Source: a virus. Taken from it: a DNA stretch of 24,087 nt. Position 1 is the first letter of the stretch, and each line of letters starts with the position of its first letter. The DNA lies in IMG/VR virus record IMGVR_UViG_3300034093_005163, positions 1 to 24,087 of that record, one strand, 5' to 3'. Below are positions 9,045 to 24,087 of the stretch, one piece after another. The translations under genes were made by a program, and so were the position numbers. The notes under the pieces were generated by a model, which was given only the letters and a program-made list of their open reading frames with translations, was not told the DNA's origin and made no database searches.

Positions 9045-9054
9045 AGTTATTATA
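9039..9054. repeat. Perfect inverted repeat TATAATA-GT-TATTATA
   Basis: Two seven-base arms (9039-9045 and 9048-9054) separated by GT. Each arm reads TATAATA on its own strand, so a -10-like box faces each way. It abuts the tmRNA 5' end and could be a bidirectional start region or an operator. Confidence 0.6.
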
Positions 9055-9055
9055 T

Positions 9056-9422
9056 GGGGATAACCGGTTTTGACAGAAATTATCGGTTACGCTTGCACGC
9101 CGAGGATGATGCTAAGACTCGTTAAAATGTATTACAAACAATAAGTGGCAACACTACTTTCTGGAGCCTAGTTAACCAAGGCGTTAACACTCCTGTTACT
9201 GAAGAGCTTTTAGCTGCATAAGTAACCAAGCGGCAACTGCTTGACTAACCAAAGTTGCAAAACCAGCATGGCGTAGCGGCCAAGTCGAACCGTTACCGAC
9301 TTTAACTTTAAGTCGTTAAAGAATAAGATATTTCGTCCAATTAGAAAAATGGACTAAGCGTGTAAATGAAAGTTTAATTAGAGGTTTTTTGGACGGCGGT
9401 TCGATTCCGCCTATCTCCACCA
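9056..9422 (+). ncRNA. ssrA: Transfer-messenger RNA (tmRNA), phage-encoded
   Basis: The RNA rescues stalled ribosomes by acting first as tRNA-Ala and then as mRNA for a degradation tag. The 5' end GGGGATA pairs with TATCTCC at 9412-9418 (one G-U pair), followed by discriminator A and an encoded CCA. Next to the 5' stem is the D-loop-like GGTTTTGACAG typical of tmRNA. The T arm is GGCGG-TTCGATT-CCGCC at the 3' end. CGCCGAGG and the later CTCG form the first pseudoknot region, as in bacterial ssrA. Downstream of the tag, pairing blocks such as GTCCA/TGGAC (about 9334-9355) fit the further pseudoknots. At 367 nt it is normal in length and one-piece. An intrinsic terminator follows directly. It is flanked by phage tail genes, so it belongs to the phage genome rather than a host locus. 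Confidence 0.95.
9147..9221 (+). other. tmRNA tag-peptide reading frame (24 residues)
   Basis: Translation should resume at GGC (9147), just after UAAGU, and end at TAA (9219-9221). The tag reads GNTTFWSLVN followed by QGVNTPVTEELLAA. The resume context UAAGU-GGC closely parallels the Bacillus subtilis tmRNA (UAACU-GGC, tag starting Gly), and the LLAA end matches the hydrophobic-Ala-Ala degron read by ClpXP and related proteases. The tag is longer than the common 8-15 residues. The neighbouring frame starting at GCA would give only ATLLSGA and then a stop, with no Ala-Ala end, so I reject it. Confidence 0.8.
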
Positions 9423-9423
9423 C

Positions 9424-9455
9424 AAAAAGGTATCCAGCATTGGGTACCTTTTTTA
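9424..9455 (+). terminator. Intrinsic terminator after tmRNA
   Basis: A 12-base-pair stem is formed by 9424-9435 (AAAAAGGTATCC) and 9442-9453 (GGGTACCTTTTT), with one T-G pair, and a six-base loop AGCATT. The T run lies in the 3' arm and just after it. It begins two bases after the tmRNA CCA, so it should define the precursor end and separate tmRNA from the downstream gene. Confidence 0.85.
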
Positions 9456-9495
9456 TTTTCTAAGAGTTGAGTCTGGACATAAATAAATAAACCAG

Positions 9496-10251
9496 ATGAA
9501 AACATTAAACACAGACGATATTTTTCTAAGAAATTTAACAATTGCCTTGCTTGATTTGTTAAACGGAGAAATGGAGATTATTATTGCAAGGAATGATCAT
9601 AATGAAACTTTTAAAGTTCCATTTCTTTATAATTATGGAACAGATGAAGGCTTCTTAAAGGATTTTTATATTGGCCTGCCAGATAACTGTCGCATTCCAG
9701 CAGCAGAAGGCACCTATGATATTATTCCTAGAGGAATTGTAACTTTGTCAAGCTTCCAAGTTAAACCTTCTGATATTACAAATAAGTTTGTTAGGGGTAG
9801 TTTTACTGAACCTGAAAGAGGAGAAAATGATGAAAATATCCTAACTGGCTATTCAGCTCAGCTATTTTCTTTTCCAATGTCAATTAAATTCGATATTAAA
9901 ATTATTTGTGATAACTTAAATAAAGCATTTAAGATTGCTGAAAATATGTTACATATTTTTTATTCAAACCGGGTAATGTATTTTCAATATCACGGAGTAA
10001 GAATTCCTGCTCAATTTCAATTTCCGGCAAATGAAACAGTTGATAAGACTTATAAGTTTACAATGCTTGAAAATAATAAACTAAACGTTATTTTATCAGT
10101 TGACGTTGAGACATATTTACCTAGTTTTGAACATACTTCTAAACGTAAAAGTTCAAATGTTATTGAAAGATTTGAAGTTAATCGTAAAGGCCCAGGTGGT
10201 GATAAATTAACTAAAACTGAATGGGTTGATCAAAACAGTCCAAATACTTAA
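9496..10251 (+). CDS. Tail sheath stabiliser/terminator, T4 gp15-like
   Basis: 251 residues; T4 gp15 is 272. The pattern follows gp15: an N-terminal helix with F-L-R-N-L-T-I-A-L-L-D-L-L, a strand with the F-K-V-P-F-L-Y-N-Y-G pattern, then IPRGIVTLSSFQVKPSDITN, followed by S-F-P-M-S-I-K-F-D-I-K-I and the helix KAFKIAENMLHIFYSNR. It ends in a strand hairpin NKLNVILSVDVETYLPSFE with a polar tail. In T4 this protein caps the tail tube and sheath and joins the tail to the head. The family match is from recalled sequence pattern, not a search. The leader ATAAATAAATAAACCAG is A-rich without a Shine-Dalgarno sequence. It starts 41 bases after the tmRNA terminator, so it needs its own promoter or read-through. 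Confidence 0.72.
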   Translation: MKTLNTDDIFLRNLTIALLDLLNGEMEIIIARNDHNETFKVPFLYNYGTDEGFLKDFYIGLPDNCRIPAAEGTYDIIPRGIVTLSSFQVKPSDITNKFVRGSFTEPERGENDENILTGYSAQLFSFPMSIKFDIKIICDNLNKAFKIAENMLHIFYSNRVMYFQYHGVRIPAQFQFPANETVDKTYKFTMLENNKLNVILSVDVETYLPSFEHTSKRKSSNVIERFEVNRKGPGGDKLTKTEWVDQNSPNT

Positions 10252-10268
10252 AATAATAAAATAAACAA

Positions 10269-11129
10269 ATGTCAACTTCAAAATCATTTGCATACAATAC
10301 AGGTTCTCCAATTGCTGGAACTGACCAAGTTGGAGATCTAGCAATTAGCGTAGACGCCCAAGATTACACAACTTCACCTGGTGGAGTTCAATGGTGGCAA
10401 GGTCCTGATGAAGATTTGGGATATGTTATTGCGTATTCGCAGCCTGATGGACTACACCCAACTCCAATATTCGGTACAACTGCATCAGTTGGATTTAATA
10501 GAGCAACCTCATTGACCGAAGCAGCTTTCATTAACGTTGCAAATAGCGTAAGCGGCCAAGTTTTTATAAGCGGCAATGCTGCAAGTACCTGGTTAACTGA
10601 TAACGGATATTGGAATAATTGGTCAAGTTTTGGAAGTTCAGGATTTCAATGGATGACAATTAGTTCAGTTACCGGAAGTTCAGCATCAGGAGTAGGTCAA
10701 AACTCAATTGGAATTACAATTAGTCAAAGCGCTGGAGGTATGGAACAGCATACTGGTATGTATGCGGCAAATACATTCCCAGAAGAATATGGAGTACCGT
10801 TTGATGGTATTCAAATTTTAAATCAATCAGCTGGAATATTTACAGCAATATTTAGCCAACCTGTTACAGATCCATTGGTTGCATTTGCCAGCGTAGGTAA
10901 TCCTGGATTACAGGTGCCAGTTCAAGTATCTGCGCCATTTACTCCAATTTGGGAAACTGCTACCACTTATCAAAATGCAGTTAATGGAACTCAATACACT
11001 CAGTTTACTGGACAAGAAGGATATAATATTATTCGAATAGACGGTACCGTAAGTATGGTAAGTTTTAATTACACCGTGTCGGAATACTATTGTACAGTTT
11101 GCTTTGGATTTGTTGATCAAAATGCATAA
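10269..11129 (+). CDS. Beta-rich protein, probable virion surface or tail component
   Basis: 286 residues starting MSTSKSFAYNTGSPIAGTDQ. Two parts can be seen. Residues about 20-125 form a Trp/Gly-rich region with VGDLAISV, GGVQWWQGPDED and ASTWLTDNGYWNNW. Residues about 165-286 form a beta-sandwich-like region that runs from FDGIQILNQ to SFNYTVSEYYCTVCFGFVD. There is no signal peptide, membrane segment or catalytic motif. The aromatic- and Gly-rich first part resembles tail or adhesin proteins of environmental phages, but I cannot name a family. It follows the gp15-like gene by 17 bases and is probably co-transcribed. Its stop codon abuts the stop of the convergent tail-tube-like gene with no spacer. 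Confidence 0.75.
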   Translation: MSTSKSFAYNTGSPIAGTDQVGDLAISVDAQDYTTSPGGVQWWQGPDEDLGYVIAYSQPDGLHPTPIFGTTASVGFNRATSLTEAAFINVANSVSGQVFISGNAASTWLTDNGYWNNWSSFGSSGFQWMTISSVTGSSASGVGQNSIGITISQSAGGMEQHTGMYAANTFPEEYGVPFDGIQILNQSAGIFTAIFSQPVTDPLVAFASVGNPGLQVPVQVSAPFTPIWETATTYQNAVNGTQYTQFTGQEGYNIIRIDGTVSMVSFNYTVSEYYCTVCFGFVDQNA

Positions 11130-11747
11130 TTAGTCAAAATCTAATTCCAGATCAAAATTATAATATTGGAAAGTTGCAGTGAAAGTTGTAAACTGCGGAG
11201 TTATTGATGAATATGATAGATTCATTTCACTTAATGACTTTAGCATTGGTCTATTAAAAATAATAGACGAAACTGCATAACCTTCATTATTTAAGAGAGT
11301 TAATCGGATTGGATGAAAGAATGGATGATTTACATTTGAGATTGGATTTACCGTTAACGCTTGGCCTAATGAATTATTGCCAAGATTCTCTGGATTAACA
11401 TTTGCTGGTTCTAAATAATTTAGCGCATTATCTAAAAATATAAAATAGTTTAGGTATGCATCAGTTAACTTAAAAGTTAATTTAAGCTCTCTAGTAAATT
11501 GATCAGCTATTGGTTTTGCACTCTGTAATTCTTGAATCTTGCCAAGTGTTCGGATTTGAGTTGGTAAAGTTGAAGAAAATCCTGGAAAATTCACAGTTTG
11601 TATAGTTGATGCCATAAAATCAGATAATGACTTATATGGCAATAGCAGACTTCTATAATATTTGTTGTACTTTTGCTGTACTACATCATTAAAGAAGTCC
11701 ATTGGTAAGTTTATGAGAAAACTGTTTTGTCTGGCGTTTAATAGCAT
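11130..11747 (-). CDS. Tail tube-like protein (T4 gp19/gp54 type)
   Basis: 205 residues. The middle has TVNFPGFSSTLPTQIRTLGK, the position where tail-tube proteins have a loop with P-G and a conserved 'target' strand; it then has R-E-L-K-L-T-F-K-L-T-D-A-Y-L-N-Y-F. The end, LKSLSEMNLSYSSITPQFTT followed by TATFQYYNFDLEL, resembles the C-terminal strand pair of gp19-type tube proteins. This suggests a tube or tube-initiator (gp54/gp48-like) protein. The assignment rests on pattern and on the tail-gene context, so a generic tail protein remains possible. It is the last gene of the right-hand minus-strand block, 10 bases after the sugar-transferase gene. Confidence 0.55.
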   Translation of the reverse strand: MLLNARQNSFLINLPMDFFNDVVQQKYNKYYRSLLLPYKSLSDFMASTIQTVNFPGFSSTLPTQIRTLGKIQELQSAKPIADQFTRELKLTFKLTDAYLNYFIFLDNALNYLEPANVNPENLGNNSLGQALTVNPISNVNHPFFHPIRLTLLNNEGYAVSSIIFNRPMLKSLSEMNLSYSSITPQFTTFTATFQYYNFDLELDFD

Positions 11748-11757
11748 ATAGAATTAT

Positions 11758-14490
11758 CTATATTAGAATTGTCTTTAACTTTTCAATTACCTGATCAGCA
11801 GTGATTAATTTTGAACATTCGAATTGACGAGGTGTACCTTTTTGATCTGGGCACCAATTCCAATCACCAGCATTAAGCCTTAATCGGTTTGCGCAACCTG
11901 AACAAGCTCCAGTTGGTGCAGCTAATTTAATAATATCGCCATCTGGTTCATTATAAGGTTCAGTAAAACCGGAGATTTGAATACTTGGAGTATTTGTTAC
12001 CCAAGCTAGCCAAGTTAATCCACTACTTATTCCAATAAATGCTGCGCATTCAGTTAATTCAGTAATTACTCGGTCAATTGTACCAGCTTCAAGTTTAGCA
12101 GCTCCAACCGGATTGCGGTTTCCCATATAACCGTCTTCTTCTCTAGATAATATTACAGGTTCATAACCATTTGCAATTAACCAATCTGTAACTTCTTGCC
12201 AGCCGGTTGGATTATTCCAATATTTTGCTTGAGCAGTACTATGAATTCCAAGGCCTACTTTTTTCTTAACTATTGGACCAGTTGGATAATTAATAATTGG
12301 TTTAACCTCTTTATATTCCAAACCTAAAATATCGGTTGCAGTTCTTTGTAATGGACCTAATTTAAAATCTCTAGGATTTTTTTCACGATCAATATTATCT
12401 CCATTATGGAACCATCCAATTCTGTACATTGCATGTAAATTAGTTACCATTTGGCCAGGTTCAATTAATTCAATATTTGGATAAGTATCTTTAAATAGTT
12501 GATTCCAAAAAGTTGAACAGATTATAATACAATCGTGCTTCTTTCTAAATTCTTCAACATACGGAAACCATGCTAAAGTATCGCCTAGTGCTTTTGACTC
12601 TAGTGGAATATAGACACGCTTGCCTTTTAGGTCAGTATTAAATATTATTACTGGATTTCCGTTCTGGTCCGTAACTTTAATTTTCCAATCTTTAAAATAT
12701 TTGATTGAACTTTTTGCCCACGCTCCGCCGCTTAATTTTGTTGAATAAACTAATTTGTCAGTTTCATTATCAATAAAGTCTACTTGATATTTCATTGGAC
12801 TTGTAGTTTTTAATTCAACAAACGGTCCATCTACTAAATTATGATTTACGGTAGGTAGTGCCTGAACTCCATCAATTGTTACATGATTCATTTTTGCAAA
12901 ATTTTGGAAGTCATCATTTAAAAATTGAGTGAATGCGCATTTACCTAAATAATTAACAGTTACTGTATAACCTTTACGATATTCGCCTAATTTAATAAGT
13001 AGAAAGTCTCCCTTTTTAAGAGTAGTAAACTGCACTGTTCCATTATACTTAATTTCAAGTAGGTAATCTTTGGTTGCAGGTTCATCGTGAAATCCTGAAA
13101 CTAGATGTAAATATAAATTATTAAAATCGTCAGCTGCTGTATAAATTTGAAATTTAGCATCGTCTCTTAGGATACCATCTCTATTCCAAACAGCTTGTGT
13201 ATTTAATTCATTTGAATTTGCAATATAATTAGTTACCCAAATATCCTTAGCGTGTTTTTCTAAATAGTGTAAAAATACTCTTTCTAATTGCCAACCATTT
13301 GGGCGATCCATAAAGTAATCCTTTTTTGTTTTTACTTCATTTATAATATTTAGGGCAACCTCAGTTTTAATTGAGAAAATAAAGGTTGCCATAAATTTAG
13401 CTAGGTGAGTATCAGTTACCGAGCCTTCATGATATTCATAAATTACGGCATCATGCTGATGAGCTCTTTCTAAAAAGGCTTGGCGATATTGAAAGGTATC
13501 AAGTAGATTATCATATTCCATAAAGTGAATCATCTTCTTTCCTAGATATTTACAGAAATTAAAAGCATGTGTCATTGATCTCCAAATTGCATAGTCATGG
13601 TGATATTCCATTTCTGTATCAACTCTAGTTTTTCCAAATGTACACCATCTACCGCTGCCTACTTTATATTCTTCAAATTCAGAATTTAATAGCAGTGGAT
13701 TTTCTTTATCATACAAATAATAGTCAACTAATTTTTGAATTTCCGGTTTAATTGCATAATGCGAAACCAATAAGATTGGAATTCCTGAAAATTCTCTAAG
13801 TTTTTTAATACACTCAATTAGGTCAGATTCTTTTTCTGGAGTATTTGGCCAAGTATCAACAACAAAAATATCATCAGGATATTCATTCGGCCTAATTATT
13901 GAAGGTCTATTATCTACTGAGTATTTTATGTCATTTGCAATTCCACCTTTAACTCCAAAGAAATATAGATCGCCTGGGTTTGAATTATATTCAAAAACTC
14001 CATCTGGAAAAGCTTCGTCAAAACCTTTTACTTTATGAATATCTTCTTCGGTTAAGTTCTTATAATAATCAGACCATTCTTCTGAAATATTTGCAAGCAA
14101 TGGAGCTGCCCAACTTCCATCTGACTTTCTGGTTCCATGTTCAGGTCTTCCAATTGAAGCACATGTAAATATAAATGCTCCACCAGGTTTTAGCATTCGA
14201 ATAATGTTTTGTAATGACATTTCATAGAACATATCATGTTCAAATACTTCAGTTGAAATTATCAAGTCAAACTGCTCGTCTGGTGCATCATATAAATGAG
14301 CAACTTGGATAACATCAACATTTTGGCCTTCTCCCACGTCTAATCCAATATAATTACAGTTGGTTAGCATAAATCGGTTATTGCCATTTATGTCCAATGA
14401 TCCAATATCTAAAACTTTTTTGCCAGTGAAATATTTTGGGAAAATACCACTCATTTTTTTACAAAATTCTTGCTGTTGAGGATGTGCCAT
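11758..14490 (-). CDS. Methyltransferase - glycosyltransferase - TibC-like O-heptosyltransferase fusion
   Basis: 910 residues in three parts. Residues about 1-185 form a class I SAM-dependent methyltransferase (motif I VLDIGSLDINGNN at 26-38; YIGLDVGEG; STEVFEH at 79-85; MLKPGGAFIFT at 99-109). Residues about 200-450 look like another sugar-transferase module (DIFVVDTWPN, LLVSHYAIKPEI, a HFMEYDN acidic motif near 322-328). Residues about 545-910 resemble the bacterial autotransporter heptosyltransferase family (TibC): VDGPFVEL, ESKALGDTLAWFPYVEEF (631-648), STFWNQLF and TATDILGLEYKE. A four-cysteine finger follows at C863, C866, C880 and C892 (C-x2-C-x13-C-x11-C), which in TibC binds iron. 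TibC proteins transfer heptose to Ser of autotransporter adhesins. Here the probable target is a phage Ser/Thr-rich protein. Donor sugar and target are inferred. Confidence 0.78.
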   Translation of the reverse strand: MAHPQQQEFCKKMSGIFPKYFTGKKVLDIGSLDINGNNRFMLTNCNYIGLDVGEGQNVDVIQVAHLYDAPDEQFDLIISTEVFEHDMFYEMSLQNIIRMLKPGGAFIFTCASIGRPEHGTRKSDGSWAAPLLANISEEWSDYYKNLTEEDIHKVKGFDEAFPDGVFEYNSNPGDLYFFGVKGGIANDIKYSVDNRPSIIRPNEYPDDIFVVDTWPNTPEKESDLIECIKKLREFSGIPILLVSHYAIKPEIQKLVDYYLYDKENPLLLNSEFEEYKVGSGRWCTFGKTRVDTEMEYHHDYAIWRSMTHAFNFCKYLGKKMIHFMEYDNLLDTFQYRQAFLERAHQHDAVIYEYHEGSVTDTHLAKFMATFIFSIKTEVALNIINEVKTKKDYFMDRPNGWQLERVFLHYLEKHAKDIWVTNYIANSNELNTQAVWNRDGILRDDAKFQIYTAADDFNNLYLHLVSGFHDEPATKDYLLEIKYNGTVQFTTLKKGDFLLIKLGEYRKGYTVTVNYLGKCAFTQFLNDDFQNFAKMNHVTIDGVQALPTVNHNLVDGPFVELKTTSPMKYQVDFIDNETDKLVYSTKLSGGAWAKSSIKYFKDWKIKVTDQNGNPVIIFNTDLKGKRVYIPLESKALGDTLAWFPYVEEFRKKHDCIIICSTFWNQLFKDTYPNIELIEPGQMVTNLHAMYRIGWFHNGDNIDREKNPRDFKLGPLQRTATDILGLEYKEVKPIINYPTGPIVKKKVGLGIHSTAQAKYWNNPTGWQEVTDWLIANGYEPVILSREEDGYMGNRNPVGAAKLEAGTIDRVITELTECAAFIGISSGLTWLAWVTNTPSIQISGFTEPYNEPDGDIIKLAAPTGACSGCANRLRLNAGDWNWCPDQKGTPRQFECSKLITADQVIEKLKTILI

Positions 14491-14496
14491 TTTTAC

Positions 14497-15162
14497 TTAT
14501 CTTTTTGTTATTATTGTTATTCCATTTAGGAAATTTACTGATTCAATATCAGTGCGAATTGTTAAACCTTTTTCTTTTGTCTGTTTAGTTAAGAAGTCTT
14601 CTCTTCTAGCATGCACGTTCCAAAATTCTTCTTGCATTTGCCCATTAAAATTAATATCATCTACTAGATTTTTTGTAAATTCAATAGAGGAACCTGGGTG
14701 TTTAAAACCGCCTTCGTAATCTTCCCAATACGACGTGCAAGTATCTTCAATTACATATACTCCTTCCGGTTTTACGTGGTCAATTAAATGATTAAATGAG
14801 GTAATTACATGACGGTTAATGTGAGACCCATCATCAAGTACCATATCAAATGGTCCCCATTTTTGGGCAACCCATTTTAAAAAATTAGCATCATCTTGAG
14901 ACCCAATTTCTACAAAAACCTTTTTATCTGGATTTTCGTATTGTTTGCATGAAGGTTCAATATCAATGCCAATAATTGTTGCATTTGGATAGTATTCTCT
15001 CCAAGTAGAAAGAGACTCTCCATGCAATACCCCAATTTCAAGAATTTTTAAAGGCTCTAATTGGTTAAATGGTAACCACTTCTCGTATTTTACACAATAG
15101 TTGTGAATTTCAGAAGATTTGTCAGTGCCTTTAGAAAGGGCAATTGTATTTAGTGATCTCAT
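14497..15162 (-). CDS. SAM-dependent O-methyltransferase, macrocin/MycE-like
   Basis: 221 residues. SAM motif I is LEIGVLHGES (41-50), followed by ATIIGIDIEPSC (motif II acidic residue at about 67). The block MVLDDGSHINRHV (about 107-119) and VYVIEDTCTSYWEDYEGG (about 135-152) match the metal-dependent sugar O-methyltransferases of the MycE/macrocin type, where an Asp, a Glu-Asp pair and a His hold magnesium and act in catalysis; D110/D111, H114, E139 and D140 are all present. It most likely methylates a hydroxyl of a sugar. It stands between two multi-domain sugar-transferase genes, one base from the upstream stop and six bases before the downstream start. That context says it decorates the same glycan. 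No signal peptide; cytoplasmic. Confidence 0.8.
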   Translation of the reverse strand: MRSLNTIALSKGTDKSSEIHNYCVKYEKWLPFNQLEPLKILEIGVLHGESLSTWREYYPNATIIGIDIEPSCKQYENPDKKVFVEIGSQDDANFLKWVAQKWGPFDMVLDDGSHINRHVITSFNHLIDHVKPEGVYVIEDTCTSYWEDYEGGFKHPGSSIEFTKNLVDDINFNGQMQEEFWNVHARREDFLTKQTKEKGLTIRTDIESVNFLNGITIITKR

Positions 15163-15163
15163 A

Positions 15164-17974
15164 TTATTTCCAAAAATAAATTAATTGTAGTGCATTATTA
15201 GGGCCGCAAAATAGTAAGTATGAATTAAAACCTAATCTGTTAAATCTGACAATAAATTCATCACGTAATTCTTCATTAAAATTAAGGTGTTCATGATGAT
15301 ATTCAACTGCAACATTTCGAATCTTAGCTAAGTTAGCATCACTAATGCCTTTTAGTGCAATAATTTCAGAACCTTCAATATCTACCTTTAAGAAGTCAAT
15401 TCGGTCAATTAAACCATTGTCTAAAATATAGTCTAGGGTATATAGATTAACGTCGTATTGAGTAACAGTTGGATCTTTTTGATGCCATAAGTTAGAGCCA
15501 CCTAAGTGAGAACTTTCAGTTAAGGTTAAGGTTCCTAATTGATCTCCAATTGCTGCATTAAATAGGACGGCATTTGCTGGCGCATTTTGTTTTAGGATCT
15601 CAAAATACCTACGATCAGGTTCAAAGGTTACAATTTTACTTGCTCCCATATGATATGCATACCGAGTAAAGATTCCAATATTTCCACCAAGATCAACCAC
15701 TACATCTCCTGGTTGGATTTTAACAACTGGATTTTCTGAGCGGTGTGGATGTTCATAATCAGTTAAGTTATAAATTTCATGATAAATTGCATAATCCCAT
15801 CCGTATTTATAGGCAATATCCATTGTACCACCTTGTACTTGTTTAATTGAACCTAAATTTTTAATTTCGTCCTTAGCAACAAAGAAATATTCAGTATCAT
15901 GGAAATTTTGGTCTCTTTGAGCTTTAATATGGTCAATCATGATTTGAGCAAAGCCTAGATTTTTATTTCCATGAAAGTATAGAATTTGGTCTTTATTCTT
16001 TGGGATAAATTGCCAGCCGTATACTTTTCCAAAATTCTTAGGGCCTTGATCTCTCCAAAAAGAAATAAAGTGTTCCATTGCTTTGCCAGTTGTTCCAAGT
16101 AAATCGCCGTCCCATTCAGAAACATCAAAATTTGAAATTGGTAAAAACCTATTATAACCATATTTGCATCTTAGGTAATTATCAATACCTTCATCATTCC
16201 ATTGTAATAAACTTGGATAGTCCGCAAGATCAGTTTCTTTATATACTGTTAAGATTTCATTAAACCACCATTCGCAATTTCGATTGTATACGTACATGCA
16301 AATATGGGCTTTGGTAGCAAGACGCTTAACTCCTTTGGCTTTGCATAAATTTTCATTAAATAATTGCTGACCTCTTGAACCGTCAGGTTTTGTATAATAT
16401 CCAATAAAATCTTCCTGTACATGAATATCAGCTAATGGATAGTTTTCGATATTTGCAAAATGCTCTGATAATTTATCGATTGTATGGTTTGCAATAATAT
16501 CACCATCCAACCAAACAAAATTTTCAAAACTTTCTTCAAAGGCTGCAAGACAGGCATATTGCTTCCAATACCATTTATCATAGTTTGAATAGTAGGGAAT
16601 TGTTAATTTTCGGGCAATTACATTTGGCAAATAGTCAAACGGAACATCACAGTCAATTCCATAAACAATAAGTTTACGGTTTGAGAATTCCAATAGCGAT
16701 TCAGCTAATTTCTGAATGATCGGCATATAGGCCAGGTTACCGCAGGTCACCCATGCAAAGTCAGTTGAGTATTCATTTACCTCAGGTTGAATGAGGTCCT
16801 GGATGTGATCTTGTGCGATTTTTGCTGCATTTTCCCAAGTGAATTGGGTTCGGATTTGTTTTGATTCCATTAGCGCGGATTTTTTATAAATTTCATAATT
16901 ATCATAAACTTCTCTAAGTCTAAGCTTAAGATCTTCAAAGTTTGGCTCAACGAAATTACCTGGAGCATTTGGATTCCAAGATTCGTCATTTGCAACACCA
17001 GCTGGAACTTCTCCATGGGTTGCTACTGGTAAACCTTTACCTGCAGCAAATTCTAATTGAGCTCCCCAATCAGAATAGATTGATGGGGTACCGCAGGCCA
17101 TTGCCTCAATTAGTGGAAGATTCCAACCTTCACTACGAGCACAAGAAACAAATACATCAGCCGTTTGTAATAAGTTGACATAGTCAGCTTTGCTTAAATG
17201 AGTAAGTATTTTAATGCCTTTATGAGTTAAGCCAAATTTGGCAAGACGTTCTTGAGTATTTGAACAGTCGTCATTTGCAAATGGATTTTCAACATTTAGG
17301 ATAAGTTCAACATTTTCATCTTCTGAAAAGGTATCAATGAATGCTTTTATAATTTCTTTAGTAGATTTGCGATATTCCCAGCGGCCAACTACAACAAATC
17401 TAAATGGGCGACCTTCTGGAAATGAGGTCTCTCGAGAAATGGGTTTAAACATTTGGGTATCAACTCCCTCAGGTACAACCTTTACTTTATCGGCTCGAAT
17501 TCCTTGGACAATTGTGCACTCTTTTTGCCAGCTGCTTGGAACCCAAACTTGGTCAAAGGTTTGTAAGTGTTTAAAAAAATCTTCTGGATATTTAGTAGTT
17601 TCCCAAACATTATAGGCAATTTTTGGGCCATCATACTTATCACCAAAATATTTATGATTAACATCATTTAAGACAATGTGAACATCAGGTTTTCCAGGAT
17701 TTGGATAGTTTTGATATAGTGGAAACTCTTGTGAAAGGTTTGGGGTCTGTAAAGTTTGTTGAGTTAGGATTGTTTTTAACTCAGTATCAATATAATACTC
17801 ATCATTATGAGGTTCATCATTATTATAACCCGTCCAGGTTGAACCTACTGTCCAATTTCTGACATCAACTCTTAAATCTTCTAGAGAATTTAGGGCTTTA
17901 AAGAAATTTCTAGAATGACAATTGTATCCAGTTTCCCCAATAATTGAGGTGTGCGCTTTAATTTTAATCGACAT
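15164..17974 (-). CDS. GT4 glycosyltransferase - DxD glycosyltransferase - FkbM methyltransferase fusion
   Basis: 936 residues in three enzyme modules. Residues about 1-395 are a GT-B, GT4-type glycosyltransferase: the hinge strand FRFVVVGRWEYRKSTKE at 191-207 and the donor-site E-x7-E motif in SEGWNLPLIEAMACGTPSIY (E282 and E290). Residues about 400-690 look like a GT-A-type nucleotide-sugar transferase: DFAWVTCGNLAYMPIIQKLA and the metal-binding D-x-D in NFVWLDGDII (D490, D492). Residues about 745-936 are an FkbM-family methyltransferase: VVDLGGNIGIFTR at 759-771, VTFEPDRRYFE, FLKVDIEGSEIIALKG at 861-876. All motifs look intact. The protein could add two sugars and methylate one. The leader carries a 12-bp hairpin. 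It is the first sugar gene after the fibre and two small genes. Acceptor unknown. Confidence 0.85.
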   Translation of the reverse strand: MSIKIKAHTSIIGETGYNCHSRNFFKALNSLEDLRVDVRNWTVGSTWTGYNNDEPHNDEYYIDTELKTILTQQTLQTPNLSQEFPLYQNYPNPGKPDVHIVLNDVNHKYFGDKYDGPKIAYNVWETTKYPEDFFKHLQTFDQVWVPSSWQKECTIVQGIRADKVKVVPEGVDTQMFKPISRETSFPEGRPFRFVVVGRWEYRKSTKEIIKAFIDTFSEDENVELILNVENPFANDDCSNTQERLAKFGLTHKGIKILTHLSKADYVNLLQTADVFVSCARSEGWNLPLIEAMACGTPSIYSDWGAQLEFAAGKGLPVATHGEVPAGVANDESWNPNAPGNFVEPNFEDLKLRLREVYDNYEIYKKSALMESKQIRTQFTWENAAKIAQDHIQDLIQPEVNEYSTDFAWVTCGNLAYMPIIQKLAESLLEFSNRKLIVYGIDCDVPFDYLPNVIARKLTIPYYSNYDKWYWKQYACLAAFEESFENFVWLDGDIIANHTIDKLSEHFANIENYPLADIHVQEDFIGYYTKPDGSRGQQLFNENLCKAKGVKRLATKAHICMYVYNRNCEWWFNEILTVYKETDLADYPSLLQWNDEGIDNYLRCKYGYNRFLPISNFDVSEWDGDLLGTTGKAMEHFISFWRDQGPKNFGKVYGWQFIPKNKDQILYFHGNKNLGFAQIMIDHIKAQRDQNFHDTEYFFVAKDEIKNLGSIKQVQGGTMDIAYKYGWDYAIYHEIYNLTDYEHPHRSENPVVKIQPGDVVVDLGGNIGIFTRYAYHMGASKIVTFEPDRRYFEILKQNAPANAVLFNAAIGDQLGTLTLTESSHLGGSNLWHQKDPTVTQYDVNLYTLDYILDNGLIDRIDFLKVDIEGSEIIALKGISDANLAKIRNVAVEYHHEHLNFNEELRDEFIVRFNRLGFNSYLLFCGPNNALQLIYFWK

Positions 17975-17979
17975 GCCTT

Positions 17980-18015
17980 TTGCTAAACTTTTTATTTTAT
18001 ACTAAAGTTTAGCAA
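17980..18015 (-). promoter_or_regulatory. Hairpin in the leader of the 936-residue transferase gene
   Basis: Perfect inverted repeat of 12 bases (arms 17980-17991 and 18004-18015, core GCTAAACTT / AAGTTTAGC) with a 12-base AT loop that contains TATAAAATA on the minus strand. It ends five bases before the ATG and partly covers an AAAAGG that could serve as a ribosome site. No T run follows, so it is not a normal terminator. Possible translation control or an operator. Confidence 0.45.
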
Positions 18016-18039
18016 TAAGGTTATGTAATCTTAAAAAAA

Positions 18040-18279
18040 TTATGCAGCAGTTAAGCCTAGGGCAGTTAAGACTTTGGTAACAATAACACTATCATTTGTA
18101 CCCCAATCAGATATATCAGTTAACCGAACTGCACCACTACAGATAATTGCATTGCCGCTATCCATTAATTGATAAATCACAGAAACTGAGGTTGCGCCTA
18201 ATTCATAGGTCATGGGTATAAATTTAATACTGGTTGCAGTTTTGCCGAGTATTGAATAGTTTTGAATATTAGTAGTCAT
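18040..18279 (-). CDS. Small hypothetical protein between fibre and transferase genes
   Basis: 79 residues starting MTTNIQNYSILGKTATSIKF; compact, with alternating hydrophobic residues (VSVIYQLMDSGNAIICSGAV) that suggest a beta-barrel or beta-sandwich, and no membrane segment. It follows the 230-residue gene by 28 bases, with an A-rich leader (AAAATAAATAAAATC) and no Shine-Dalgarno sequence. About 65 bases of non-coding DNA with a hairpin separate it from the 936-residue transferase. Small beta proteins at this place could be fibre-associated or head decoration proteins, but I do not recognise it. Confidence 0.7.
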   Translation of the reverse strand: MTTNIQNYSILGKTATSIKFIPMTYELGATSVSVIYQLMDSGNAIICSGAVRLTDISDWGTNDSVIVTKVLTALGLTAA

Positions 18280-18307
18280 GATTTTATTTATTTTTGTTTT
18301 TAACTAA

Positions 18308-19000
18308 TTATGGAGCAATTTCAATTGTAATAGAATATCTTCTAAAAAATGGTAATCCAGGGGTGAAAAACGAGATCGGGCCTGGAGGTATCGATATTGG
18401 AGGTCCACCAACAAAGTCGGCAATATTAAAGCCAGTATCAATGTCAGTTAGCCGAAGCTGCACTAAGTTTACTGGGAATGGTGCACTATTGTCTAAATTA
18501 ATGGTATGCTCAAAGTCTGCATTTGGCATGAAGTGCTGATAGTAATATGTAACTGGTCCACCGTTTATACTCGTGAGGCCAGTACTAAATGGGGTATTAG
18601 TAAAATAGGTATAAGGACCACTGGTTCCATCGTTTATCACTAATTCAACCATTATGTCAAACGAAGAATTATTCATAACTTCGCCGTCATATGTGTGCTC
18701 ATCAGTCCAGTGTCGATAATTATAAAACTGGTCAAATCCAATTGCACCTGCAACTGCGTTGGCTGCAGCCCAATAGCTTAATCCTTGTGGGTCATTTCGG
18801 TTGATGTCATAAGTACCAGCATATGTACCACTGAGTATTTTCCATCTAAACTCAGGAGCGCCCGTCTTATCTGGGTAAATCTGATTCCCGACACTGGCAG
18901 AAGCCCCAGACTGTTGAGTTAATAGTGCAGCAATCGAAGATTTGTCGTCTGGCGCCCAAACGACCGCCATTACTCCAGTTGGTGTTCCGTCTATCGGCAT
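18308..19000 (-). CDS. Hypothetical 230-residue protein downstream of the fibre gene
   Basis: Starts MPIDGTPTGVMAVVWAPDDK. The protein has an aromatic-rich middle (LSYWAAANAVAGAIGFDQFY, then NYRHWTDEHTYDGEV) and a beta-rich second half with Asn-, Pro- and Gly-rich loops (GGPPISIPPGPISFFTPGLP). There is no signal peptide or membrane segment. It begins three bases after the stop of the giant fibre gene, so it is very probably co-translated and could be a fibre-associated adhesin or an assembly partner. I do not recognise a family. Confidence 0.72.
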   Translation of the reverse strand: MPIDGTPTGVMAVVWAPDDKSSIAALLTQQSGASASVGNQIYPDKTGAPEFRWKILSGTYAGTYDINRNDPQGLSYWAAANAVAGAIGFDQFYNYRHWTDEHTYDGEVMNNSSFDIMVELVINDGTSGPYTYFTNTPFSTGLTSINGGPVTYYYQHFMPNADFEHTINLDNSAPFPVNLVQLRLTDIDTGFNIADFVGGPPISIPPGPISFFTPGLPFFRRYSITIEIAP

Positions 19001-19003
19001 TAC

Positions 19004-22000
19004 TTATAATAATTTTTCAATTTGATCCCGTAAGTCATCAATTTGGTGCTGTTGCTGCTTGATTGCCTCAATTAGGACTGATACAAGTGCTGGATAGGCA
19101 ACTGCCTTGGTGCCATTCTCATTTTCAAATACAACTTCCGGAAATACTGTTTCCATTTCCTGTGCAATAACACCCGCATGAACTCGAGTCTTATCCTCTT
19201 GATCATTTCTGGTGAAGGTAACTCCTCTCATTGATGTTACCTTAGCTAGAGCATCAGTGATGGTCTTCACATTATCTTTAACTGATCTATCTGAGTATGC
19301 TATAATATTAGCAGTTGCATAAATATCGCCGCCTACTTCTAATCGATAAGTTGGACCGGTTCCATTAGCAATAGATAGTCTGCCGTTTGTAACATCGTAG
19401 TGCATATTTGTTGCAGCTATGGTAGTTGCTGCAGAGAAGTAGGCTATTCGGTCAACTGTACTTGATGTAATAGTTCCAGTAGTACCGCCTGAAGTTCCAG
19501 AAGAACCAGTAGTTCCGGATGTTCCGCTTGAACCAGTTCCACCAGTTCCACCGCTTGTTCCGGATGTTCCAGCCGTACCTGATGCACCAGAAACTCCGCT
19601 TGTTCCACTAGTTCCAGAAGAACCAGTTCCACCAGTAGCGCCGCTTGTTCCAGAAGTTCCACTTGAGCCATTAGAACCTGATGTTCCAGAAGACCCATTA
19701 GAACCAGACGTACCTGAGGTACCTCTTGTTCCAGAAGTTCCAGAACTTCCGTTTGAACCATTAGAACCTGATGTTCCAGAGCTACCATTTGAGCCGGATG
19801 TACCGCTTGTACCTGATGAGCCATTTGATCCATTAGAACCAGAAGTTCCAGAAGAACCGTTTGAACCGGATGTACCAGAAGTACCAGATGATCCATTTGA
19901 ACCAGAAGTTCCAGAAGTACCTCTTGTTCCTGAAGTTCCAGAACTTCCATTTGAGCCATTTGAACCAGAAGTTCCAGAGCTACCATTTGAGCCTGATGTA
20001 CCACTTGTACCTGATGAGCCGTTTGACCCAGCAGATGCCATTAGCGTCCATTGCGCTGGACTAGTAGACGGGTTATTTCCTATATTACTTGATACTATAG
20101 AAATATAAGAACTTCCGTTAAATGAAATTACATCATTAATCGCATAAAGAGTACCACCAACCCAAATACCTTTCCATATAAAACTTGTACCACTAGTACC
20201 AGCTGATCCTGAAGTTCCTGATGTACCTGAGCTGCCATTAGAACCTGAAGTACCTGATGTTCCAGAAGAACCGTTTGAACCAGATGTACCAGAGGTTCCT
20301 GACGTACCTCGTGTTCCAGAAGAACCAGAGCTACCGTTTGATCCGTTAGAACCTGAAGTTCCAGAAGAACCATTAGAACCTGATGTACCCGAGCTTCCAT
20401 TTGATCCATTAGAACCTGAGGTTCCAGAAGAACCATTTGAGCCTGAAGTACCTGAAGTACCACGTGTTCCTGAAGTACCAGACGAGCCTGATACACCTGC
20501 AGCAGATATGTCAACAATAATATCAGTGCCAGCAGATGGCGTCCAAGGTGTACCTGAAACATAAGTTACTGGAAATTCCCAATATATTCCAGTATCAAAA
20601 CCTACACCAGTTGTTCTATAATATACAATTTGACCACCAATTCCACCATTTGTCTTAATTAGTGTGCCAGTACCAATTGATGGATACACTCCACTATAAT
20701 TGGTTGAAGTTAATGAAACTTCCGCTATGTTTAATAGAGAAGTTGCAGCATCTAAATTACCATTATTACTATAAATTTTAGTACTGGCTAATGGAGTACC
20801 CCAATCCCAACCGTCACTAATTGCTGCTCCACTTGCTCCAGTTGAGCCTGATGTGCCGGACGTTCCTGAGCTTCCATTAGAACCGGATGTACCAGAAGTA
20901 CCACGTGTTCCTGAAGTACCGGAACTGCCATTTGAACCAGAAGTTCCACTAGAGCCGTTTGAGCCGTTTGAGCCGGAAGTTCCTGAAGAACCATTAGAAC
21001 CTGATGTACCAGAACTTCCGTTAGAGCCATTTGAACCTGATGTACCAGAACTTCCGTTAGAACCATTTGAACCTGATGTACCTGAAGATCCATTTGAGCC
21101 ATTTGAACCTGATGTACCAGAACTTCCGTTAGAACCATTAGAACCTGAAGTACCTGAGCTTCCATTTGAGCCAGAAGTACCGCTTGAACCGTTTGAACCA
21201 TTTGAGCCGGATGTTCCTGAGCTACCGCTTGAACCGTTTGAACCAGAGGTTCCTGAGCTACCATTTGAACCAGAAGTTCCCGAAGAACCGTTTGAGCCAG
21301 ACGTACCGCTTGAACCGTTTGAACCATTTGAGCCGGATGTTCCTGAGCTACCGTTTGAACCAGAAGTACCTGAAGTACCTCTTGTTCCAGAAGTTCCTGA
21401 AGAACCATTTGAGCCGGATGTTCCTGAGCTACCATTTGAGCCGTTAGAGCCTGAGGTACCTGAAGTTCCACTAGAACCGTTTGAACCATTTGAACCAGAA
21501 GTACCGCTTGAACCGTTTGATCCATTTGAACCTGATGTTCCTGAAGAACCATTTGAACCTGATGTTCCACTTGAGCCATTAGAACCATTTGAACCTGAAG
21601 TACCTGAAGTTCCTGAGCTTCCGTTTGAACCAGATGTTCCTGAGCTACCATTTGAGCCGTTTGAACCTGAAGTTCCACTTGAACCATTTGAGCCGTTTGA
21701 ACCTGAGGTTCCGCTTGAGCCGTTAGAACCGGAAGTACCTGAGCTACCGTTAGAACCTGAAGTTCCAGAAGAACCATTTGATCCATTAGAACCAGAAGTT
21801 CCAGAAGAACCATTTGATCCATTAGAACCTGAGGTACCACTTGAGCCGTTAGAACCATTTGAACCTGATGTTCCGCTTGTTCCCGAAGTTCCAGAAGAAC
21901 CTCTTGTTCCTGAAGTTCCAGAAGAACCATTAGAACCTGACGTTCCACTTGAACCGTTTGATCCATTTGAACCAGATGTTCCTGAAGAACCATTTGAGCC

Positions 22001-24087
22001 GGAAGTACCAGAGCTACCGTTTGAGCCATTAGAACCTGAAGTACCAGATGTTCCAGAAGATCCATTAGAACCTGAAGTTCCACTAGTTCCAGAAGAACCA
22101 TTAGAACCATTAGACCCTGAGGTACCAGAGCTTCCATTTGATCCATTAGAACCTGAAGTTCCTGAACTACCATTTGAGCCATTAGAACCAGAAGTACCGC
22201 TTGATCCATTTGAGCCATTAGAACCTGATGTACCAGAACTTCCGTTTGATCCGTTTGAACCGGAAGTTCCGCTTGTTCCAGATGTACCAGAAGTACCTCT
22301 GGTTCCTGAAGTTCCAGAAGAACCATTAGAACCTGATGTGCCAGAAGAACCGTTTGAACCTGAAGTTCCTGAGCTTCCATTTGATCCATTAGAACCTGAA
22401 GTTCCACTTGAACCGTTTGAACCGCTTGTTCCTGAAGTTCCAGATGAACCGTTTGAACCTGAAGTTCCACTAGTACCAGAAGTACCTGAAGTACCTCTTG
22501 TTCCTGAAGATCCTGAAGTTCCTGAGCTACCATTAGAGCCATTTGAACCAGATGTTCCTGAGCTACCGTTTGATCCATTTGAACCAGATGTTCCTGAGCT
22601 ACCGTTAGAACCTGAAGTTCCAGAAGAACCATTAGATCCGTTTGACCCTGACGTTCCTGAAGAACCGTTAGAACCGTTTGACCCTGACGTTCCTGAAGAA
22701 CCATTAGAACCGTTTGAACCTGATGTACCACTAGAACCATTAGAACCGGAAGTTCCACTAGTTCCTGAGCTACCAGTTAAGCCGGAAGAACCTGAAGTTC
22801 CGCTTGACCCGTTTGAACCGTTTGAACCTGAAGTTCCTGAGCTTCCATTTGATCCATTAGAACCAGAAGTACCGCTTGTTCCAGAAGTACCAGTTGAACC
22901 TGATGTACCTGAGGTACCACTAGTACCTGAAGTACCTCTTGTGCCAGAAGAACCGGATGTACCGCTTGAACCAGAAGTTCCTGAAGAACCGTTTGATCCG
23001 TTTGAACCCGACGTTCCTGAGCTTCCATTAGAGCCTGAAGTTCCTGAGCTTCCGCTTGAGCCATTTGAACCAGATGTACCAGAAGTTCCAGAGCTTCCAT
23101 TTGATCCGTTTGAACCAGATGTTCCACTTGAGCCATTAGAACCTGAAGTTCCTGAGCTTCCGTTTGATCCATTAGAACCAGAGGTACCAGAGCTTCCATT
23201 TGATCCATTTGAACCAGACGTACCACTTGTTCCAGAAGAACCATTAGAACCGGAAGTACCAGAAGTTCCAGAAGAACCATTAGAACCGGAAGTACCTGAA
23301 GTACCAGAAGTTCCAGAAGTACCTCTTGTTCCAGAAGTACCAGATGAACCGCTTGAACCATTAGAACCAGAAGTTCCAGATGAACCATTAGACCCTGAGG
23401 TTCCACTAGTTCCAGAGCTTCCATTTGAGCCGTTTGAACCTGAAGTTCCAGATGTTCCAGAAGAACCATTTGATCCGTTTGAGCCTGATGTTCCTGAAGT
23501 TCCACTAGTACCAGAAGTACCAGAAGTACCTCTTGTTCCAGAAGAACCTGAAGTTCCTGAACTACCATTTGAACCATTAGAGCCGGATGTACCGCTTGAG
23601 CCATTAGAACCAGAAGTTCCAGAAGATCCATTAGAGCCTGAAGTACCTGAAGAACCATTTGATCCGTTTGAACCAGATGTACCTGACGTACCAGAGCTGC
23701 CGTTTGAACCTGAAGTTCCTGAGCTTCCATTTGATCCGTTTGAACCAGATGTACCGGATGTTCCGCTTGATCCATTAGATCCATTTGAACCTGATGTTCC
23801 GCTTGAACCGTTTGATCCATTTGAACCTGAAGTACCTGAAGTTCCACTTGAACCATTTGAGCCATTTGAACCTGAAGTTCCTGAAGAACCATTTGAACCT
23901 GAAGTTCCTGAGCTTCCGTTTGATCCATTAGAACCAGAAGTTCCACTTGAACCGGAAGTTCCACTTGATCCATTAGAACCTGACGTTCCTGAGCTTCCAC
24001 TCGATCCATTAGAACCTGATGTTCCTGAGCTTCCGTTTGATCCATTTGAACCAGAAGTACCAGAAGAACCATTTGATCCATTTGAGC
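19004..24087 (-). CDS. Giant collagen-like tail fibre with S74 self-cleaving chaperone domain; N-terminus outside window
   Basis: One open frame runs from the right edge to TAA at 19004: 1693 residues visible, no start inside. Frame is continuous: the codons at the right edge (S-N-G-S-N-G) and those at 20689 are in register, and the GTG at 20687-20689 is an internal Val. From N to C: about 1080 residues of Gly-X-Y triplets (GSN, GSS, GTS, rare GTR); a globular insert (about 20500-20829); more triplets; a roughly 47-residue carbohydrate-binding-like insert (20035-20180); more triplets; a neck; and the C-terminal chaperone (96 residues). The last has Ser and Lys spaced as in S74 self-cleaving domains (SDRSVK, Ser codon 19292-19294), then VHAGVIAQEMETVFPEVV and a coiled-coil end. 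It should trimerise as a long receptor-binding or whisker fibre. The triplets lack Pro, unlike animal collagen. Confidence 0.88.
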   Translation of the reverse strand, partial: SNGSNGSSGTSGSNGSNGSSGTSGSNGSSGSSGTSGSNGSSGTSGSSGTSGSNGSNGSSGTSGSNGSSGTSGSNGSNGSSGTSGTSGSNGSNGSSGTSGSNGSNGSSGTSGTSGSNGSNGSSGTSGSNGSSGTSGTSGSNGSNGSSGTSGSNGSSGTSGSNGSSGTSGSNGSNGSSGTSGSSGTRGTSGTSGTSGTSGTSGSNGSNGSSGTSGTSGSNGSNGSSGTSGTSGSNGSSGTSGSNGSSGSSGTSGTRGTSGTSGTSGTSGSNGSSGTSGTSGSNGSSGTSGTSGSNGSNGSSGTSGSNGSNGSSGTSGSNGSSGTSGSNGSNGSSGTSGTSGSNGSSGSSGTSGSNGSSGTSGSNGSNGSSGTSGSSGTSGSSGTRGTSGTSGTSGTSGSTGTSGTSGTSGSNGSNGSSGTSGSNGSNGSSGTSGSSGLTGSSGTSGTSGSNGSSGTSGSNGSNGSSGTSGSNGSNGSSGTSGSNGSNGSSGTSGSNGSSGTSGSNGSNGSSGTSGSNGSNGSSGTSGSSGTRGTSGTSGTSGTSGSNGSSGTSGTSGSNGSSGTSGSNGSNGSSGTSGSNGSSGTSGSNGSSGTSGTRGTSGTSGTSGTSGSNGSNGSSGTSGSNGSNGSSGTSGSNGSNGSSGTSGSNGSNGSSGTSGSNGSNGSSGTSGTSGSNGSSGTSGTSGSNGSNGSSGTSGSNGSSGTSGSNGSNGSSGTSGSNGSSGTSGTRGSSGTSGTSGTSGSNGSNGSSGTSGSNGSNGSSGTSGSNGSNGSSGTSGSNGSSGTSGSNGSSGTSGSNGSNGSSGTSGSNGSNGSSGTSGSNGSSGTSGTSGSNGSNGSSGTSGSNGSSGTSGSNGSNGSSGTSGSNGSNGSSGTSGTSGSNGSNGSSGTSGSNGSSGTSGTRGTSGTSGSNGSSGTSGSNGSNGSSGTSGSNGSSGTSGSNGSSGTSGSNGSSGSSGTSGSNGSNGSSGTSGSNGSSGTSGSNGSNGSSGTSGSNGSNGSSGTSGSNGSNGSSGTSGSNGSNGSSGTSGSNGSSGTSGSNGSNGSSGTSGSNGSSGTSGTRGTSGTSGSNGSSGTSGTSGSTGASGAAISDGWDWGTPLASTKIYSNNGNLDAATSLLNIAEVSLTSTNYSGVYPSIGTGTLIKTNGGIGGQIVYYRTTGVGFDTGIYWEFPVTYVSGTPWTPSAGTDIIVDISAAGVSGSSGTSGTRGTSGTSGSNGSSGTSGSNGSNGSSGTSGSNGSSGTSGSNGSNGSSGSSGTRGTSGTSGTSGSNGSSGTSGTSGSNGSSGTSGTSGSAGTSGTSFIWKGIWVGGTLYAINDVISFNGSSYISIVSSNIGNNPSTSPAQWTLMASAGSNGSSGTSGTSGSNGSSGTSGSNGSNGSSGTSGTRGTSGTSGSNGSSGTSGTSGSNGSSGTSGSNGSNGSSGTSGTSGSNGSSGTSGSNGSNGSSGTSGTRGTSGTSGSNGSSGTSGSNGSSGTSGTSGATGGTGSSGTSGTSGVSGASGTAGTSGTSGGTGGTGSSGTSGTTGSSGTSGGTTGTITSSTVDRIAYFSAATTIAATNMHYDVTNGRLSIANGTGPTYRLEVGGDIYATANIIAYSDRSVKDNVKTITDALAKVTSMRGVTFTRNDQEDKTRVHAGVIAQEMETVFPEVVFENENGTKAVAYPALVSVLIEAIKQQQHQIDDLRDQIEKLL
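19007..19294 (-). other. Peptidase S74 / intramolecular chaperone domain of the fibre
   Basis: The last 96 residues of the fibre. In this family a trimeric chaperone domain folds the fibre and then cuts itself off in front of a Ser, using a Ser-Lys pair five residues apart. Here SDRSVK supplies that pair, and HAGVIAQEMETVFPEVV and the C-terminal helix (VLIEAIKQQQHQIDDLRDQI) match the rest. Mature virions would lack this part. Confidence 0.85.
20034..20180 (-). other. Carbohydrate-binding-like module inserted in the fibre stalk
   Basis: About 47 residues, WKGIWVGGTLYAINDVISFN then GSSYISIVSSNIGNNPSTSP and AQWTLMA. The spacing of Trp, Tyr, N-D-V-I-S-F-N-G-S-S-Y and the final W-T-L follows the small CBM5/12 (chitin-binding-type) fold seen in many tail fibres. 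It sits between two Gly-X-Y stretches, so it would protrude from the stalk. Confidence 0.65.
20836..24087 (-). repeat. Long low-complexity repeat coding for Gly-X-Y triplets
   Basis: About 3.25 kb of imperfect 9-base units, often grouped into 27- or 36-base modules (for example G-S-N-G-S-N-G-S-S-G-T-S). Synonymous codons vary from copy to copy (gga/ggt, tca/tct/agc/agt, act/aca), so the DNA repeats are less exact than the protein repeats. Shorter stretches of the same kind lie at about 20190-20495 and 19480-20030. The repetition is a likely site of length change by recombination and of assembly error. Confidence 0.9.

Follow-up and report, generated by a model that had tools for sequence, protein, structure and literature searches.

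The virus record IMGVR_UViG_3300034093_005163, a fragment of a freshwater phage genome, 24,087 bases long and analysed here in its entirety (the window), encodes a long collagen-like (Gly-X-Y) fibre rich in Ser and Thr, followed on the same strand by three genes for glycosyltransferases and methyltransferases, the last of which ends in a domain resembling the protein O-heptosyltransferase TibC. The probable function of this gene island, in our assessment, is O-glycosylation by the phage of its own fibre stalk, with a variable methylated decoration. The evidence comes from the identity and predicted fold of the TibC-like domain, its co-occurrence with Ser/Thr-rich Gly-X-Y proteins in distant phages and bacteria, and the exchange of modules between relatives, which are designated below by our locus numbers (L).

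The TibC-like domain

The domain occupies residues 561-910 of a 910-aa protein (11761..12810, minus strand). It matched TIGR04414, the NCBIfam model for the autotransporter strand-loop-strand O-heptosyltransferase, over residues 548-908 with 267 bits (cut-off 200; model positions 12-374 of 374), and the TibC sequence at 4e-51; a PDB sequence search at an E-value of 1 returned only two matches, both of them TibC sequences. An AlphaFold model of the protein had a mean pLDDT (predicted local distance difference test) of 76.3, with values under 50 at residues 752-759 and 864-886. Its residues 545-910 aligned with TibC (4rap) at Z 35.2 and a root-mean-square deviation (rmsd) of 2.8 over 352 residues, with a TM-score of 0.82 by target length, and the model combines an N-terminal beta-barrel with a GT-B-like catalytic fold, as in TibC and Aah.

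The functional residues described for TibC are D110, T226, K230, W305, R286 and the cysteines C339, C342, C358 and C370 (PMC4358343). The catalytic D110 and T226, K230 and W305 correspond to D637, T752, K756 and W827, and the four iron-finger cysteines to C863, C866, C880 and C892. All eight are kept in 17 of 17 aligned domains, so that the catalytic Asp, three of the four sugar-binding residues and the iron finger are shared with TibC and Aah. The neighbouring gene likewise encodes a Ser/Thr-rich repeat protein, although a Gly-X-Y protein rather than an AIDA-type autotransporter, and, unlike TibC and Aah, the domain is fused to other transferases and methyltransferases and belongs to a separate clade. 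Because no AIDA match was found in the nine window proteins scanned, we file it as a sister clade beside the autotransporter heptosyltransferases that, judged by sequence, would act like TibC.

The fibre and the enzyme island

The proposed acceptor is the fibre at 19004..24085 (minus strand), which comprises at least 1693 aa, its frame being open at the contig end and its 5′ end lying beyond; in contigs with an identical GT4 module the frame is 4178 and 4244 aa long. It contains 458 Gly-X-Y triplets, nearly all made up with Ser, Thr or Asn, in runs of 362, 35 and 61 triplets (about 20822-24079, 20183-20497 and 19481-20029, minus strand). The longest run consists of 130 GTS, 126 GSN, 93 GSS, 8 GTR, 2 GST and three single other triplets, and is entirely free of Pro. 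Both Pfam Collagen and Peptidase_S74 (chaperone of endosialidase; about 19130-19294, minus strand) matched the fibre in a scan covering its 561-aa 3′ part. As a background check, 80 randomly drawn viral loci, 7.9 kb long on average, contained no Ser/Thr/Asn/Ala-rich Gly-X-Y frame.

On the same strand, 3′ of the fibre, lie genes for proteins of 230, 79, 936, 221 and 910 aa and then the tail-tube gene (11130..11747, minus strand; phrog_45 7e-7), which forms the island's downstream boundary; the gaps from fibre to tail tube are, in order, 3, 28, 65, 1, 6 and 10 bases. Module names were checked against Pfam, PHROGs and NCBIfam. The 936-aa protein begins with a GT4 glycosyltransferase (residues 1-400; 16775..17974, minus strand; PF00534 2e-13, phrog_2170 5e-39), whose predicted model aligned with 3oy2 at Z 33.4 and rmsd 3.4 over 348 residues. 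Next comes a D-x-D region (residues 401-735; 15770..16774, minus strand), a putative second transferase that stands beside FkbM in relatives too; it had no family match in the three databases, and structure searches with the whole 936-aa model, this region included, were filled by GT4 matches. The protein ends in an FkbM methyltransferase (residues 736-936; 15164..15769, minus strand; PF05050 3e-17, TIGR01444 above cut-off). The 221-aa protein is of the Methyltransf_24 family (14497..15162, minus strand; PF13578 4e-7, phrog_21658 6e-32). In the 910-aa protein, the TibC-like domain is preceded by Methyltransf_23 (residues 1-185; 13936..14490, minus strand; PF13489 2.5e-8, phrog_32762 5e-49) and a middle region (residues 186-560; 12811..13935, minus strand) with a GT-A-like fold over residues 206-446. 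The predicted model of this stretch aligned with mannosylglycerate synthase, a GT-A fold, at Z 15.0 and rmsd 3.3 over 180 residues, and nucleotidyltransferases scored nearly as high.

An initial annotation of this DNA had noted more than 1000 residues of GSS, GTS and GSN triplets in a Ser/Thr-rich collagen-like fibre, and three enzyme genes packed in the same direction behind it; the triplet count and the gaps of 1-65 bases on one strand bear out both observations. Its assignments of GT4, FkbM and a TibC-like enzyme were likewise upheld by family matches; the methyltransferase it called MycE-like bears the family name Methyltransf_24, and the remaining methyltransferase module matched Methyltransf_23. 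The D-x-D module it proposed has none, and the GT-A-like middle region was missing from its list.

Co-occurrence with Ser/Thr-rich Gly-X-Y proteins

To compare fibre types, contigs were selected with a DNA pattern for seven Ser/Thr-rich triplets, a Pro-rich pattern or a random word, and the three sets were restricted to contigs of at least 15 kb (50, 50 and 45); the contigs were those among the matches listed, and all counts from these sets hold within that scope. The TibC-like domain was found in 19 of 50 Ser/Thr-rich contigs (17 over the cut-off), compared with 0 of 50 Pro-rich and 0 of 45 random contigs (Fisher 4.6e-7 and 7.3e-7). One contig, L191, fits both DNA patterns; it was assigned to the Ser/Thr-rich contigs alone, and assigning it to the Pro-rich ones instead gives 18/49 against 1/51 (Fisher 5.0e-6). 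A Pro-rich frame of at least 10 triplets was verified in 40 of the 50 Pro-rich loci, and two of the 50 also hold a Ser/Thr-rich frame. Of the 50 Ser/Thr loci, 42 have a verified Gly-X-Y frame, and 18 of these carry the domain; among the eight where the frame could not be verified, L235 carries the enzyme. For the 19 contigs with the domain, its distance to a Ser/Thr-rich Gly-X-Y frame is at most about 9 kb in 12 and about 13 kb in one more. The pairing also occurs in separate phages, namely Microcystis phage Mel-JY01 and a 735-kb phage.

A quick IQ-TREE tree was also made of the domain. Viral TibC-like loci number at least 584; the tree draws on 259 domain frames, of which 123 were non-redundant at 85% identity; leaving out 15 rows from contigs picked for Gly-X-Y left 108, of which 93 could be labelled (the 15 without a usable label include L037, whose contig does hold a Ser/Thr-rich fibre). 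A row was labelled positive when at least 8 triplets in runs of at least 6, with at least half S, T, N or A at X and Y, lay within 10 kb; the classic rows L611, L612, L613 and L622, from loci of about 4 kb with short flanks, were labelled 'none' by hand. The tree splits a classic autotransporter clade (27 rows) from the remainder, and a Ser/Thr-rich Gly-X-Y frame accompanied 54 of 73 classifiable rows of the phage-type clade against 0 of 20 classic rows. Where the domain follows another module within one protein, such a frame was present in 40 of 46 cases, and for stand-alone enzymes in 14 of 47 (36/38 and 5/18 for viral rows only). Positive rows cluster on the tree (12 changes, against 21 or more in shuffles), as expected from descent alone, and this clustering by itself is no evidence of function.

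Within the window's own family, the tail tube as query retrieved 52 relatives, and counts were made over 50 records out of 67 loci first listed. The TibC-like domain was present in 35, GT4 in 33, a collagen match at an E-value of 1e-3 in 37 and one over the Pfam cut-off in 30. A collagen match accompanied the domain in 33 of 35 records, the other two (L044, L094) being contigs that start inside the island. Weak matches account for four of the 33: L082 and L084 stop at GT4 or no further than 0.7 kb from it, and L086 and L087 have E-values of about 8e-7, L086 with 28 triplets in runs. Eleven of the 15 records lacking the domain had no collagen match and four had one weak match (E-values 2e-4 to 6e-4); several of the 15 are short, whereas L103 (217 kb), L099 (142 kb), L105 (119 kb) and L101 (85 kb) are long. 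Upstream of the tail tube in L092, L099, L103 and L105, inspection by eye showed arrays of similar, adhesin-like proteins of 220-620 aa at the position that fibre and island occupy elsewhere. In a 34-row tree built from tube, sheath stabiliser and wedge proteins, the two outer clades consist of the enzyme-less rows. We also asked whether fibre and enzymes had been gained or lost together more than once in the family; this is unsupported because the tree shows a single change; the family therefore counts as one event.

The pairing recurs in bacteria. Our bacterial survey covered 47 genome loci, of which L563 is a contig with the window's gene order and others are chromosomal. In the order of Methylobacter luteus (L565), which we take to be Methylococcales, the family was found at an E-value of 1e-20 in 12 of 201 genomes, with 13 matches. 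Five are classic copies (654-663 bits) with no Gly-X-Y in their 4-kb loci; the neighbours of L610 and L612, the two scanned, are AIDA stalk proteins. Seven full-length matches are phage-like (304-327 bits), four of them in genomes already among the 47 loci, and an eighth phage-like match is a fragment (L621). Next to six of these seven, at 44-157 bp, is a small gene with GTS/GTA/GTN-type repeats whose start looks signal-like by eye; the seventh, L617, from a genome shared with L569, adjoins a gene that is Ser-rich and starts similarly but has no regular run. In Methylobacter and its kin, a TibC-like gene is paired with the gene of a small GTS-repeat protein, apparently secreted, at L565-L568, L614-L616 and L618-L620. 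Outside that order, Ser/Thr-rich Gly-X-Y genes lie near the domain in L582 (178 bp), L577 (about 1 kb) and L572 (5 kb). One family with two clades, each beside its own Ser/Thr-rich repeat protein, is the strongest hint in the sequences at the identity of the acceptor.

Constant ends and exchanged modules

Across the window's family, GT4 and the TibC-like domain are constant outer modules, and the methyltransferases between them are swapped. The two are joined in one protein of 767-782 aa in L075, L076, L081, L083, L085, L086, L093, L095 and L096, and L054-L057 have single proteins of 1113-1549 aa with extra regions. In Mel-JY01, one 1227-aa protein consists of GT4, a middle region, a Methyltransf_24-like module and the TibC-like domain. 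The window spreads D-x-D, FkbM, Methyltransf_24, Methyltransf_23 and the GT-A-like region between the same two ends over three genes, and L045 and L046 are without the Methyltransf_24 gene.

The DNA identities point to one exchanged block, 13801..15300 (minus strand), which holds Methyltransf_24 plus Methyltransf_23. Here the identity of the window to L033 is 0.64-0.80, against 0.91-0.97 in the island on both sides of the block; in the block the window is nearer L037 (0.79-0.85), to which it is mostly less similar elsewhere (0.58-0.81). Identity to L563 is also lowest in the block (0.59-0.77, elsewhere 0.74-0.90), and in L563 two Methyltransf_24-type genes, one of them just under the Pfam cut-off, replace the one.

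Two further loci, L123 (1281-11035) and L127 (1267-11029), contain six or seven transferase- or methyltransferase-looking genes that end in a TibC-like gene and precede a sheath-like gene; no Gly-X-Y gene was found in these loci as examined.

Candidate sugar-donor genes

TibC and Aah use ADP-heptose and form a ring of twelve subunits. An HldE-type adenylyltransferase gene overlaps the TibC-like domain or follows it within 366 bp in 12 loci, and an HldE-type kinase lies within 767 bp of it in 11, which is an indirect pointer to the donor. The profiles for these genes were built from four adenylyltransferase and two kinase sequences; in NCBIfam, the top-ranked model was TIGR02199 for all three adenylyltransferases compared and TIGR02198 for both kinases, with every score below its cut-off. 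In L133, L143 and L144, the GT-TibC-like gene is followed by the adenylyltransferase and kinase genes and then by a Ser/Thr-rich Gly-X-Y fibre on the opposite strand. The adenylyltransferase and kinase genes beside the TibC-like gene span 11026-12157 in L160, 11044-12175 in L165 and 11393-12522 in L143, and an adenylyltransferase match was found in 7 of 22 whole records.

A model for fibre glycosylation and its alternatives

The observations fit a model in which the TibC-like domain would place the first sugar, most likely heptose from ADP-heptose, on Ser and Thr of the Gly-X-Y stalk. The glycan would be extended by GT4, together with the D-x-D and GT-A-like regions in phages that have them, and FkbM, Methyltransf_24 and Methyltransf_23 would methylate it as a cap. 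The resulting coat would probably do for a proline-free stalk what hydroxyproline does for animal collagen, in stiffening and hydration, and would probably also shield or retune the fibre, with the exchangeable methyltransferase block altering the surface of the coat. Of the methylated glycan proposed by the initial annotation, glycosylation of the stalk gains support from the co-occurrence survey in distant phages and bacteria and its controls; methylation is the less certain half, because the methyltransferases vary from phage to phage as inserts in a constant core of GT4 and the TibC-like domain.

BclA of Bacillus spores offers a parallel, as a collagen-like stalk that carries sugars; it differs in that the long run here has no Pro and the predicted enzyme is of TibC type. 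BclA glycans contain methylated sugars. Sugars on the BclA stalk are thought to aid hydration (PMC8968730), and Thr glycosylation is cited as a means to stabilise collagen in PMC3368898, where a Pro-rich prophage collagen made in Escherichia coli was not glycosylated, consistent with the absence of the domain from the Pro-rich contigs.

Several observations weigh against the model. R286 of TibC is not kept: V808 takes its place in a pairwise alignment that is less certain there, and since R286A abolished or largely diminished TibC activity (PMC4358343), the donor pocket may differ from that of TibC. A search of two 271-kb relatives found no HldE-like genes. The domain is absent from 31 of the 50 Ser/Thr-rich contigs, including 24 of the 42 with a verified frame, and L191 carries it near a Gly-X-Y frame that is Pro-rich only (locus L546). 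Of the 73 classifiable rows in the phage-type clade, 19 lack a Gly-X-Y frame in the 10 kb around the domain, most of them being stand-alone enzymes of a single clade. To that extent enzymes without a Ser/Thr-rich Gly-X-Y neighbour, which the initial annotation had taken as a sign against its proposal, do occur; among the window's relatives, 33 of 35 are paired and the other two are contigs cut inside the island. That family pairing is itself a single event on the tree.

The foremost alternative, which we consider unlikely, is that the enzymes modify the host surface (lipopolysaccharide, LPS, or O-antigen), thereby blocking superinfection, and adjoin the fibre as part of a host-recognition cluster. 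WaaC and heptosyltransferase II do share the fold family of the TibC-like domain (Z 17-18), yet the domain scored only 19 bits with the LPS heptosyltransferase I model and keeps the TibC iron finger. Gtr-type phage O-antigen conversion places flippase and bactoprenol-dependent transferase genes beside the specific transferase, and no such family was found at an E-value of 0.01 in the nine window proteins scanned. Glycosyltransferases of pelagimyophages, mostly GT8, are likewise located in the tail and host-recognition region beside the tail fibres and are read as modifiers of the host O-chain (PMC7029224); the lack of the domain in Pro-rich Gly-X-Y contigs and the GTS-repeat genes adjoining the bacterial copies speak against the same role here.

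It is improbable, too, that the substrate is another virion protein, such as the adjacent tail tube or a neighbouring adhesin, rather than the Gly-X-Y stalk. In mycobacteriophages, phage-encoded transferases act on the phage's own particle, as they probably do here; glycans are reported there on capsid and tail tube (cited in PMC12619734), whereas fibre glycosylation would involve the stalk and a different enzyme family. The tail-tube gene is only 10 bases downstream of the island; we do not favour it as the target because the tube is kept in relatives without enzymes, and it is with Ser/Thr-rich Gly-X-Y proteins that the domain is statistically associated across lineages. The viral exceptions to that pairing are mostly one clade of 14 stand-alone enzymes, found near large fibres without long Gly-X-Y runs. 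In L148, L159, L160, L165, L170 and L175 of this clade, a gene with a GT4-like start precedes the enzyme. Before that gene, five of the six loci have a frame that runs off the locus end after about 2300-2460 aa, and its large product may be the acceptor of the stand-alone enzymes. The enzyme of L110, a 636-kb phage, has no Gly-X-Y within 18 kb.

Simple hitch-hiking in large aquatic phages rich in long Gly-X-Y fibres and glycosyltransferases, with no functional link, would agree with the single event in the window's family and with the longer contigs of the Ser/Thr set (median 49.7 kb, against 35.9 and 37.3 kb), but is highly improbable given that contigs of at least 40 kb still showed 15/32 against 0/22 and 0/21, that the 54 unselected rows had a median Gly-X-Y distance of 1.3 kb with 15 of them within 200 bp, and that the pairing recurs in bacteria.

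Phage affiliation and neighbouring genes

A tail sheath stabiliser (PF16724), the tail tube (phrog_45) and a transfer-messenger RNA (tmRNA) in the window point to a T4-like phage as its source, on sequence grounds. Positions 9000-24087 had no near DNA match among 50,697 phage records, and the window's relatives sit on contigs of up to 271 kb. Between fibre and enzymes, the 230-aa protein (18308..19000, minus strand) has no family match and 46-49% identity in near relatives; the 79-aa protein (18040..18279, minus strand), also without a family match, has a 28% match in relatives without enzymes as well. The phage tmRNA (9056-9422, plus strand; Rfam RF00023, 118.7 bits) has an odd, long tag, GNTTFWSLVNQGVNTPVTEELLAA. 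A protein that by eye resembles a sigma-70 type factor is encoded at 2654-3280 (minus strand), near terminase-like and PhoH-like genes. The window's gene order is also found in L563 (CAIWBA010000291.1, 254 kb), a relative of the window phage binned with a Bacteroidetes assembly, which is either a hint at the host or a binning error.

Implications

Among open-licence papers, we found no literature on such enzymes acting on phage fibres. Related reports describe four groups of putative glycosyltransferases that belong to the core of an aquatic jumbo phage lineage, with the virion among the possible targets listed (PMC12619734), and actinophages that have glycosyltransferases and collagen-like genes (PMC10202952). 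More broadly, and tentatively, it is possible that a distinct and widespread TibC-like clade writes O-heptose-based glycans on proline-free Gly-Ser/Thr-X stalks, both of phage fibres and of small secreted bacterial proteins. Sugars would there replace hydroxyproline as the stabiliser of the rod, and the decorating modules, methyltransferases above all, would be swapped between constant GT4 and TibC-like ends, so that the coat would change like a serotype.

Many environmental phage contigs encode very long GTS/GSN/GSS fibres, and O-glycosylation offers a testable explanation of how a proline-free collagen-like rod might hold together. The proposal is open to direct experiment in Mel-JY01, a sequenced phage whose host is named (Microcystis elabens), and in cultured Methylobacter; the Methylobacter pair of TibC-like enzyme and GTS-repeat protein represents a simple system for the question of the acceptor. 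If true, the model would bring into phage biology a protein O-glycosylation system aimed at the fibre, and give a second meaning to fibre-adjacent glycosyltransferases, so far read as host-surface modifiers (PMC7029224). It would also extend TibC-type chemistry from the adhesins of pathogens to environmental phages and methane-oxidising bacteria.

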